This document shows, piece after piece, positions 44,085 to 46,148 of a stretch of 64,000 bases of DNA. A program made the position numbers and the translations under genes. This DNA comes from Polaromonas sp. (GTDB taxonomy: Bacteria; Pseudomonadota; Gammaproteobacteria; Burkholderiales; Burkholderiaceae_C), in NCBI GenBank assembly GCA_013298815.1, contig JAAFJF010000003.1, forward strand, positions 62,001 through 126,000, in the 5' to 3' direction. The notes beneath the pieces were generated by a model. The model saw only the letters and a list, made by a program, of their open reading frames with translations, was not told the DNA's origin and did not search any database. Each line of letters opens with the position of its first letter. Position 1 is the first letter of the stretch.

Positions 44085-44600
44085 ATGGCAAAATCATCGC
44101 TAAAAAAAGTTTACGCAAACAGCAATAGCCATGCCCGTTGGTGGACATGGCTGGGCTTGGCGCTCATTATTTTATTGGCTGACCAGTTCACAAAAACATT
44201 GGTTGTTGGCTACTACCAATTGGGAGACAGCACGCCCTTAACTAGCTTTTTCAACTTGGTACGAGCACACAACACGGGTGCGGCCTTTTCTTTTTTAGCT
44301 AAAGCCGGCGGCTGGCAGCGCTGGTTTTTCACGGGAATTGGCGTGGCGGCGGCGCTATTTATCACTTGGTTGCTTCGTCAACATGCGGGTCAAAAGCTTT
44401 TTGCATTCGCTATGGCATGCATCTTGGGTGGCGCGATTGGCAATGTGATTGACCGTGTGATGTACGGCTATGTCGTGGATTTTTTAGATTTTTACTACGG
44501 TGGTTGGCATTTCCCAGCGTTCAACGTGGCGGACAGCGCAATCAGCATAGGTGCGGTATGTTTGATTTGGGATGAACTGCGCCGCGTCAATAAAAAATAA
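44085..44600 (+). CDS. lspA: Lipoprotein signal peptidase (type II)
   Basis: LspA, 171 residues, cleaves the signal of prolipoproteins at the lipidated cysteine. It has four helices and the two catalytic aspartates in [21 protein letters not shown] and [12 protein letters not shown], and starts with [18 protein letters not shown]. It is directly adjacent to ileS and is surely translated from the same message. Confidence 0.96.
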
Positions 44601-44642
44601 AAAATTGACGTCTCGATTTATTTTCGTCATAATTTATACAAG

Positions 44643-44944
44643 AAGGGGAGTAACTCCCTAATTTTGAAGGATAAACTAGCATCTAGATTTACCCTTCAAA
44701 ACGCTACAACAAGTCGTCATTTCGAAGTTTTATGTCACAGTAGAACTTCCGGTTTGTTGGTCATGCAGCCTTTGCATGATGAGCCAGACCTTCGATTGAA
44801 ACCTAACGGGTTTGGTCGAAGCGTATCCTAACATCGCAACTCCAAATTCGTTTAGTTTCATAAGCCGGACGTCTGCTTGCCTGTTTCACAGATAGCCAGA
44901 CTCCCAATTCGTTATTGAGATTGAATGGAAATTTGGAGTTTTAC
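44643..44944 (+). ncRNA. yybP-ykoY manganese riboswitch and leader of terC
   Basis: The leader begins with AAGGGGAGTAACTCCC at 44643, the yybP-ykoY start, and contains GTCGTCATTTC and GAGCCAGACCTTCG followed by GGTTTGGTCGAAGC at about 44780-44823, as in the E. coli alx leader. The class senses Mn2+. AACTCCAAATT (44838-44848) is a perfect 11-base complement of AATTTGGAGTT (44930-44940), which contains the ribosome-binding site. This suggests translational control of terC. A near repeat at 44900-44915 (GACTCCCAATTCG) offers a competing partner. Confidence 0.88.
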
Positions 44945-45637
44945 ATGGAATTATTTTCAACACCTTGGTGGTCTGCACTGCTAGCTATTATTTTGATTGA
45001 CCTGGTTTTAGCGGGTGACAATGCCATCGTCATTGCTTTAGCAGCGCGCAATTTACCCGCACATTTGCAGAAAAAAGCCATAGCTTGGGGTACTTTTGGC
45101 GCTATTGCGGTACGTTCTGTGATGACGGTAGGTGTTGTTTGGTTGCTAAAAATCCCTGGTTTGATGCTGGTTGGCGGACTTGGTTTGCTATGGATTGCTT
45201 ACAAACTGCTCGCAGACCAAGGCAACAAGGAACACGACGGCCCCGTAGCCAGCACGTTCTGGGGTGCTATGAAAACCATCGTGGTTGCAGATGCTTTGAT
45301 GGGCGTTGACAACGTCTTAGGCGTCGCCGGAGCAGCACATGGTTCTTTCGATTTGGTGATTATTGGCTTGCTAATTAGCGTACCCATTGTGGTTTTTGGA
45401 AGCACGATGGTGCTCAAGCTTGTCGAGCGCTTCCCCATCATCATTAATGTTGGTGCTGCAGTATTGGCATTTACTGCGGCAAGCATGATTGTAAAAGAAC
45501 CGTTTTTGGGTAGCTTCTTCAGCCAAGAAGTTGTGAAGTACCTCACTTATGCAGTCTCAATAGCCGGCGTTCTAGGCGCGGGCTGGTGGGCTACACATCG
45601 ATCCTCAGCAACCAAACAGGAGATAACTTCCCACTGA
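44945..45637 (+). CDS. TerC/Alx family membrane protein, likely manganese exporter
   Basis: From ATG at 44945 (GGAG 6 bases before) the protein has 230 residues and seven helices. ILIDLVLAGDNAIVIALAARNLP and DALMGVDNVLGVAGAAHG are the two conserved acidic helices of the TerC family. With a yybP-ykoY leader, manganese export (as E. coli Alx, MntP-linked) is the best inference; tellurite resistance is the historical name only. An upstream frame extension to 44915 lies in the leader and is rejected. Confidence 0.88.
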   Translation: MELFSTPWWSALLAIILIDLVLAGDNAIVIALAARNLPAHLQKKAIAWGTFGAIAVRSVMTVGVVWLLKIPGLMLVGGLGLLWIAYKLLADQGNKEHDGPVASTFWGAMKTIVVADALMGVDNVLGVAGAAHGSFDLVIIGLLISVPIVVFGSTMVLKLVERFPIIINVGAAVLAFTAASMIVKEPFLGSFFSQEVVKYLTYAVSIAGVLGAGWWATHRSSATKQEITSH

Positions 45638-45683: not shown

Positions 45684-46148
45684 ATGGAAACAATGATTGT
45701 TTATGTAGATGACGCAGACTATGCACGAAAAACATTGACGCCACTCTTAGCTACGCACCCTGGTCAAAACACCAAAGAAGCAAGCCATTGGATTGTTGTG
45801 GCGTGCGCACCAAGCGTAACGAACGATGTAGCCAAATGGGTTAGCCCAGAGGCTAAAGATCTGTGGCGCGACGATTGGGCACTTGCCTTGTTTGAACAGA
45901 TCAGACCCTTGATAAGTGCAACAGGCAATACAGTGTCGACACAGCTTGCTAATGCGAAGACCAGCTTGATCGACCAAACCAGCGAACTGCTGAGGTTGCA
46001 TATAGGCGCTAAAGTGATTGATGCTCGCAGACCCAAATTTGGTCACGATTTGCAGCCAGTTACTAGTGAGCAACCGGCTGGCAACAAAAAATTAGCAGGC
46101 TTGGCTGCTGCCGTGACCGTTGCGACAGTTTTGGCAGCAGACTTTTAA
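45684..46148 (+). CDS. Hypothetical protein downstream of terC
   Basis: A 154-residue protein I do not recognise. It begins METMIVYVDDADYARKTLTP, reminiscent of the first strand of universal-stress-type folds, has a Trp-rich middle (SHWIVVAC, DLWRDDWALALFEQI) and ends with a hydrophobic stretch KLAGLAAAVTVATVLAADF, which could be a membrane anchor or tail. AAGGAG precedes the ATG by 8 bases. It lies 46 bases after terC and may be in the manganese-controlled transcript. Confidence 0.68.
   Translation: METMIVYVDDADYARKTLTPLLATHPGQNTKEASHWIVVACAPSVTNDVAKWVSPEAKDLWRDDWALALFEQIRPLISATGNTVSTQLANAKTSLIDQTSELLRLHIGAKVIDARRPKFGHDLQPVTSEQPAGNKKLAGLAAAVTVATVLAADF

Follow-up and report, generated by a model that had tools for sequence, protein, structure and literature searches.

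Mn2+ riboswitches, with their L1/L3 core and the switch helix P1.1, are already known (PMC6754395, PMC11087558). In Xanthomonas oryzae and Lactococcus lactis, a sarcin-ricin-like L1 makes an A-minor contact to a C-G pair of P3, and P1.1 acts on transcription by competing with a terminator (PMC6754395, PMC11087558). As numbered for Xanthomonas by Suddala et al. 2019, A10 makes the A-minor contact, and non-canonical pairing joins G8 to A94 and G9 to G93 (PMC6754395). The alx and mntP leaders of Escherichia coli have both been reported as Mn-sensing riboswitches (PMC9603457), the latter being turned ON by Mn2+ through release of its ribosome-binding site (RBS) (PMC11647493). The riboswitch 5' of BP3410 in Bordetella pertussis is a Mn-responsive yybP-ykoY element in front of a Mn exporter gene (PMC8546581).

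Here, we compare these systems with the leader of a terC gene in a window (the whole stretch of 64,000 nucleotides analysed) from Polaromonas sp. We carried the Xanthomonas numbering onto our sequences by inference, setting A10 at 44649, with position 14 as the first P1.2 base and position 90 as its partner. The window leader shares with the E. coli alx leader the aptamer plan, a place 5' of a TerC-family gene and an A at position 14, a likeness drawn at the level of the aptamer; it differs in that alx has a Watson-Crick A14-U90 pair and, in the alignment to our covariance model R1, no P2 hairpin of the window's size. The mntP leader likewise carries an R1-detected aptamer and hides its RBS without Mn2+, freeing it with Mn2+ (PMC11647493), but it keeps G14-C90 and regulates mntP rather than terC. 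The B. pertussis riboswitch, likened here by description, differs in being detected by Rfam (E = 8.5e-15), in acting on transcription and in the gene it serves (PMC8546581). The window shares its L1, A-minor contact and P1.1 switch helix with X. oryzae and L. lactis; unlike there, the 3' strand of P1.1 is common to a further hairpin, HP-A, and in our model would act on the RBS via additional hairpins. Among the literature matches listed, mostly judged by title and the start of the abstract, none described a Mn riboswitch from Comamonadaceae or Polaromonas, or an L1 variant. As far as our searches go, the new elements are members missed by Rfam, an A.C closing pair that occurs together with C91 throughout the clade, and a relay of the hairpins HP-A, HP-B and HP-C. 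We propose that positions 44641-44940 are probably a yybP-ykoY Mn2+ riboswitch that raises terC translation at high Mn2+.

Class and architecture of the aptamer

The regulated gene, of the metal transporter/TerC type (terC/YjbE), lies directly 3' of the aptamer leader (Table 1). It is followed by an ORF of 154 aa (45684-46148) that matched nothing in Pfam or NCBIfam at E <= 0.001, and ORFs with a similar start (VYxDDAxYA) stand 3' of terC in the loci L052, L067 and L112. Upstream, shuffled regions contain on average 0.7 promoter sites per region of the quality of the sigma-70-like promoter. The best-scoring -10 element ends 7-9 nt 5' of the aptamer in 62 of 78 distinct leaders, the window included (a count made without a shuffle control), and the window transcript is expected to start at about 44640-44642, predicted to be the first base of P1.1. 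Positions 44641-44960 (320 nt) form a much more stable fold than their shuffles do (z = -8.5).

Table 1 Features of the terC leader and its neighbours, in window positions.
Feature	Position	Strand	Remarks
lspA	44085-44600		5' neighbour of the terC leader
Sigma-70-like promoter, TTGACG-17-CATAAT	44605-44633	+	10/12 consensus matches
yybP-ykoY aptamer	44641-44795	+	Four-way junction P1.1/P1.2, P2, P3, P4 with loops L1 and L3; R1, covariation
P1.1 switch helix, 5' strand GAAGG	44642-44646	+	Pairs with 44789-44793; 6-pair helix, 96.6% of cells paired
L1 5' strand GGAGTA	44647-44652	+	Identical in 150/150 distinct aptamers
Position 14, A where G is usual	44653	+	Opposite C44784, an A.C mismatch; 40/150 distinct aptamers
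P2 hairpin, variable insert	44662-44701	+	14-nt arms 93% complementary; length varies among relatives
P3 with L3	44707-44759	+	P3 44707-44715 with 44751-44759, changes on both sides in 7/9 pairs; L3 44716-44723; upper stem 44724-44727 with 44746-44749
P4 hairpin	44760-44780	+	Changes on both sides in 3/4 scored pairs
C90 and L1 3' strand CAGA	44784-44788	+	C91 at 44785 replaces the usual A or G
HP-A hairpin	44790-44821	+	5' arm CTTC overlaps the P1.1 3' strand; -13.2 kcal/mol
HP-B anti-anti-SD helix, 17 pairs	44797-44860	+	44797-44815 with 44842-44860; masks the anti-SD strand; -22.2 kcal/mol
Anti-SD strand AACTCCAAATT	44838-44848	+	Exact complement of 44930-44940
Switch strand CGTTTAGTTTCA	44849-44860	+	Partner 44797-44808 (HP-B) or 44916-44927 (OFF helix)
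HP-C hairpin	44867-44904	+	3' arm CAGACTCC, 44897-44904
OFF helix, 3' strand	44916-44940	+	Spans the Shine-Dalgarno (SD) GGAG; P = 1.0 with the anti-SD in the full leader
terC, YjbE subfamily, regulated gene	44945-45637	+	TIGR03717 216.9 bits; PF03741 156.1 bits; start codon ATG at 44945, SD GGAG at 44935-44938

The earlier note had placed a yybP-ykoY leader 5' of terC, and this assignment is borne out by R1, by covariation and by the alx and mntP matches taken together. The Rfam model RF00080 (Manganese) found nothing in the window, nor in the leader at E <= 10, nor in the window's whole genome at E <= 0.001, and no match in the window or in 18 relatives attained its gathering score (45 bits), which counts against our reading. 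In a permissive search, however, 2 of 15 relatives matched RF00080 below threshold (L082, 36.3 bits, E = 2.5e-6; L020, 23.9 bits). We rejected the silence of Rfam as proof of absence because of these sub-threshold matches and because R1 finds alx and mntP.

Upstream of the best 80 of 318 related terC genes, GGGGAGTA followed by a.AGACC strand was present in 77 of the 80 loci. The other three are L065, L092 and L108, which hold terC genes of one Rhodoferax-like clade and show no aptamer in the sequence fetched. We built R1 from 29 diverse Burkholderiales aptamers (28 relatives plus the window, which, as one of the training rows, scores 72.4 bits). R1 also matched 77 of these 80 loci, 24 of the 77 being training rows; among the 56 non-training loci, 53 were matched. 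Its hits in the 80 loci number 79, two of them second aptamers on the opposite strand. At the genome level, R1 matched 64 of 399 Burkholderiales genomes, the total taking in the genome of the window and some of those used in training. A draw of 369 genomes from the class gave 8 with a match, three of them shared with the 64. Bordetella pertussis is a member of the same order.

In 9502 bases of E. coli searched with filters off, the best R1 matches were the alx leader (E = 4.4e-11, 44.5 bits) and the mntP leader (E = 3.8e-6, 26.6 bits), the third-best standing at E = 1.7. Since R1 had no E. coli sequence in its training set and yet returned these two leaders first, we regard the class of the window leader as settled at the level of sequence and structure, and Mn2+ would be the ligand of its aptamer.

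We noticed that several loci carry more than one aptamer. Two Mn riboswitch aptamers stand back to back on opposite strands at L052:916-1345, L067:981-1387 and L112:1291-1651, one 5' of terC/YjbE and the other 5' of an ORF that by eye resembles the Alx-type TerC; L123, L126, L130 and L137 likewise hold two aptamers on opposite strands. A single Burkholderiales genome (G237; contigs C72, C73 and C77) has five aptamer matches.

The secondary structure is upheld by the alignment underlying R1. Over 27 pairs, 93.8% of cells were paired, compared with 82.6% in shuffles and 26-47% in slid controls, and both sides had changed in 100 cells, where shuffles gave 28.9; covariation over the 29 sequences supports the four-way junction with its P3 and P4 helices. 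The L1 pattern, GGGGAGUA with a 3' strand.AGACC, is present in the window, and the AGA of that 3' strand is found in 150 of 150 aptamers. The GTCA motif of L3, A44719 included, is equally invariant (150/150); judged by the motif rather than from a structure, A44719 may be the invariant L3 adenosine that contacts Mn2+ through its N7. The window departs from the usual L1 at positions 14 and 91. A CTCCC that follows L1 in the window and is frequent in relatives could pair with the GGGAG of L1, giving a rival hairpin GGGAG-TAA-CTCCC (44646-44658) that may be an apo form.

The A.C pair closing L1

Position 14 was compared across 150 distinct aptamers from 154 rows, taken from the 80 terC loci (the best 80 of 318) and from 70 of 80 R1 genome matches, the 10 weakest being omitted. 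It is G in 110 aptamers and A in 40, with C90 invariant, so the pair closing L1 is G-C in 110 of 150 and A.C in 40 of 150, and the window has no Watson-Crick 14-90 pair. By analogy with the Xanthomonas structure numbering, we would take this pair to be a defining feature of the class. A change of C90 to U, which would repair the mismatch, occurs in 0 of the 40 A14 aptamers. At position 91 the aptamers divide into those with A (69), G (37) and C (44); all 40 A14 aptamers carry C91, and 4 of the 44 C91 aptamers have G14.

The free terC tree implies 3 changes of the A14 state among 87 labelled rows. A tree grouping all 41 A14 rows fits better (p-AU 0.9), indicating that one origin suffices and that positions 14 and 91 do not covary independently. 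Repeated co-evolution of A14 and C91 was therefore dropped as unsupported, a single origin being enough and C91 also occurring with G14.

The mismatch raises the question of whether the aptamer has decayed. The A.C at P1.2 and C91 could weaken or redirect metal sensing, leaving a constitutive attenuator or a sensor of another cation or of pH, and the presence of A.C in all 40 distinct A14 aptamers would suit such a loss; the same sequences, however, keep GGAGTA in L1, GTCA in L3 and the helices, and we consider decay very unlikely. A different possibility is that a protonated A+.C wobble ties Mn2+ binding to pH, with Mn2+ and pH read jointly via a purely co-transcriptional three-hairpin relay, which we hold to be improbable. 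If A+.C is protonated, Mn2+ binding would become weaker, not tighter, at alkaline pH, the sign being opposite to that of the E. coli mntP report.

The anti-RBS helix and three hairpins

The exact complementarity reported in the earlier note is real: AACTCCAAATT is the reverse complement of the terC RBS AATTTGGAGTT (44930-44940), and the spacing, put at about 80 bases, is 81 nt. The 11-base helix said to mask the SD is present and does cover it, but was drawn too short, as 44838-44860 pairs with 44916-44940 over 23 bp with a 2-nt bulge (the OFF helix). A perfect 11-nt inverted repeat of any kind arose in 13 of 1000 dinucleotide shuffles of 44643-44944; when the upstream sequence was shuffled, an equally long complement that included the GGAG core arose in 0 of 200 trials (p = 0.005).

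Among relatives, a long SD complement reached p <= 0.05 in only 4 of 64 scored leaders, about the number expected by chance: the window (11 nt), L034 (9 nt), L068 (7 nt) and L059 (7 nt). The scored set derives from 78 distinct leaders after removal of 13 without a GGAG-type SD and of L095, which was too short. An anti-SD duplex test was positive in 4 of 40 A14 and 2 of 36 G14 leaders. In the alignment, the anti-SD pairs did not covary: the inner strand was 72.0% paired (shuffles, 72.1%) and the SD strand 62.7% (shuffles, 61.6%). The anti-SD helix was therefore rejected as a conserved platform element, given its lack of covariation and its rarity in relatives, and is largely lineage-specific. 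That it does not covary and has no clear counterpart in most relatives weighs against our preferred explanation.

The hairpins upstream of the RBS behave differently. They were scored on an alignment (A4) of 40 A14 leaders, 38 of them distinct, with pairs placed via rows L097 and L049; kinship alone can push such rows above shuffles, and slid controls gave lower covariation scores for HP-A, HP-B and HP-C. For HP-A, 95.7% of cells were paired against 94.0% in shuffles, with 7 double changes against 1.6, and its covariation score was reached in 0 of 500 shuffles. Because its 5' arm overlaps the 3' strand of P1.1, HP-A and P1.1 are mutually exclusive, and without the P1.1 strand HP-A falls from -13.2 to -4.3 kcal/mol. 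After two of the 78 leaders were dropped from HP-A/HP-B scoring as too short, HP-A had z below -1.64 in 31 of 40 A14 and 23 of 36 G14 leaders. Downstream pairing of its 3' arm at <= 10/200 shuffles was found in 6 of 40 A14 and 11 of 37 G14 leaders, raising the possibility that the G14 clade relies on this arm instead.

HP-B was 82.6% paired (78.7% in shuffles) with 22 double changes against 9.3 and a covariation score reached in 0 of 500 shuffles. By contrast, both partners had changed in 7 pairs of HP-B, where shuffles gave 5.8, and this count was reached in 146 of 500 of them. The HP-B duplex reached <= 10/200 shuffles in 22 of 40 A14 leaders (2 expected) and in only 4 of 36 G14 leaders, so its enrichment is limited to the A14 clade. 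Both this restriction and the both-side changes, which unlike the changed cells do not exceed shuffles, count against our preferred explanation. The strongest covariation of the three belongs to HP-C, with 32 double changes against 10.9, a score reached in 0 of 500 shuffles and changes on both sides in 7 of 8 pairs.

The 3' arm of HP-C is the near-identical second segment that the earlier note had seen. It exists as described, reading GACTCCCAATTCG from 44899, and the 14 nt at 44900-44913 match 44839-44852 at 93%; a 14-nt direct repeat with <= 1 mismatch appeared in 0 of 150 shuffles. Its suggested role as a competitor for the RBS is weak, since the forced structure has -39.3 kcal/mol against -51.4 with P1.1 open and -39.3 against -46.9 with P1.1 closed. 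We thus discarded the idea that the copy at 44899 locks the RBS in another way: it is a weak partner and belongs to the HP-C 3' arm. The conserved platform is a relay, in which P1.1 is set against HP-A and HP-A against HP-B.

A conserved HP-C beside a variable anti-SD strand also fits a platform whose focus is not the SD. Transcription of the long untranslated leader could end early when Mn2+ is absent, through Rho for example; the three hairpins would then set access, and the anti-SD helix would be secondary. In E. coli, termination by Rho occurs in the riboswitch region of mntP (PMC11647493), and early transcript ends appear without Mn at the B. pertussis riboswitch (PMC8546581); both speak against a purely translational output. 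However, no intrinsic terminator-like site was found on the + strand between 44560 and 45000, and the anti-SD helix of the window exceeds chance and overlaps the SD exactly, so that a mainly transcriptional output seems unlikely to us.

Proposed direction and kinetics of switching

We return to the preferred reading, that the leader raises terC translation at high Mn2+. Equilibrium folding of the full-length leader, in which P1.1 closure was mimicked by deletion of its 3' strand, left the RBS closed with or without P1.1. At 37 °C the OFF state was more stable than HP-B by 9.5 kcal/mol (P1.1 open) or 6.6 kcal/mol (P1.1 closed), and at 15 °C by 12.7 or 8.5 kcal/mol. A plain thermodynamic switch was thus rejected for the window, and switching must be co-transcriptional or ribosome-assisted. 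In growing segments, HP-B had P > 0.99 for starts at 44789-44795 and ends at 44862-44926, and the OFF helix replaced it in segments ending from 44938 onward. With P1.1 open, HP-B dominated as well (0.998-0.999; ends at 44862-44914), so the decision would rest on kinetics.

We envisage that Mn2+ docks L1 onto L3 and so holds P1.1 (GAAGG/CCUUC), which would leave HP-A with its weak upper part. The nascent strand 44842-44860 could then capture UGAAACCUAACGGGUUUGG to form HP-B, which would mask the anti-SD strand and leave the RBS unpaired on its emergence about 80 nt further on. When Mn2+ is absent, a full HP-A would take up the P1.1 3' strand, HP-B would form poorly and the 23-bp anti-SD helix would close the RBS. 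Such a scheme needs kinetics, in that a complete HP-A would have to slow HP-B and a complete HP-B to slow the OFF helix. The aptamer, the strand overlaps and the conservation of HP-A, HP-B and HP-C come directly from the computation; Mn2+ as the ligand, the ON direction and kinetic control are what we infer.

Deleting the P1.1 3' strand raised predicted SD access by > 0.1 in 17 of 74 leaders, lowered it in 2 and changed it little (<= 0.1) in 55; the 74 are what remained of 78 leaders after 4 without a recognised SD were dropped, and they are related rather than independent. The leader L095 offers a minimal platform (L095:1349-1503), with only 53 nt between AGACC and the start codon. There, the P1.1 3' strand CUUCGAUUC pairs with the SD GAAUCGGAG over 9 pairs, one of them G.U. 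The ON direction is supported by the L095 geometry, by the 17 leaders up against 2 down and by the E. coli mntP case, and in the window P1.1 closure weakens HP-A, a push toward HP-B and an open RBS that is insufficient at equilibrium. Against our explanation stand the closed RBS of the window at equilibrium, the dominance of HP-B in short segments with P1.1 open too, and the small change in 55 of the 74 leaders.

The reverse arrangement, in which the Mn2+-bound form favours RBS closure, could draw on the OFF helix being the equilibrium state with P1.1 closed too. It sits badly, however, with P1.1 closure taking the HP-A strand and shrinking the OFF-state lead, and with the L095 geometry, which gives ON. 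Other yybP-ykoY riboswitches are also known to be ON switches, which counts against it, as does E. coli mntP, ON with Mn2+ (PMC11647493); we judge an OFF switch highly improbable. As for the translational expression platform that the earlier note had read into this leader, the helix masking the RBS stands in the window, whereas the link from aptamer to RBS through HP-A and HP-B remains provisional: strand overlaps among P1.1, HP-A, HP-B and the OFF helix are seen, while equilibrium folding gives no switch.

The terC Mn2+ riboswitches of the window and of the 18 relatives tested escape the standard library, and 64 of 399 Burkholderiales genomes, some training genomes included, give a match to R1. 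At least one Burkholderiales riboswitch, that of B. pertussis, has been detected by Rfam (PMC8546581). Since equilibrium folding predicts no switch here, the platform can serve to test co-transcriptional control of translation. The A.C variant is in effect a natural mutant beside the metal-sensing loop, which makes the role of the closing pair testable.
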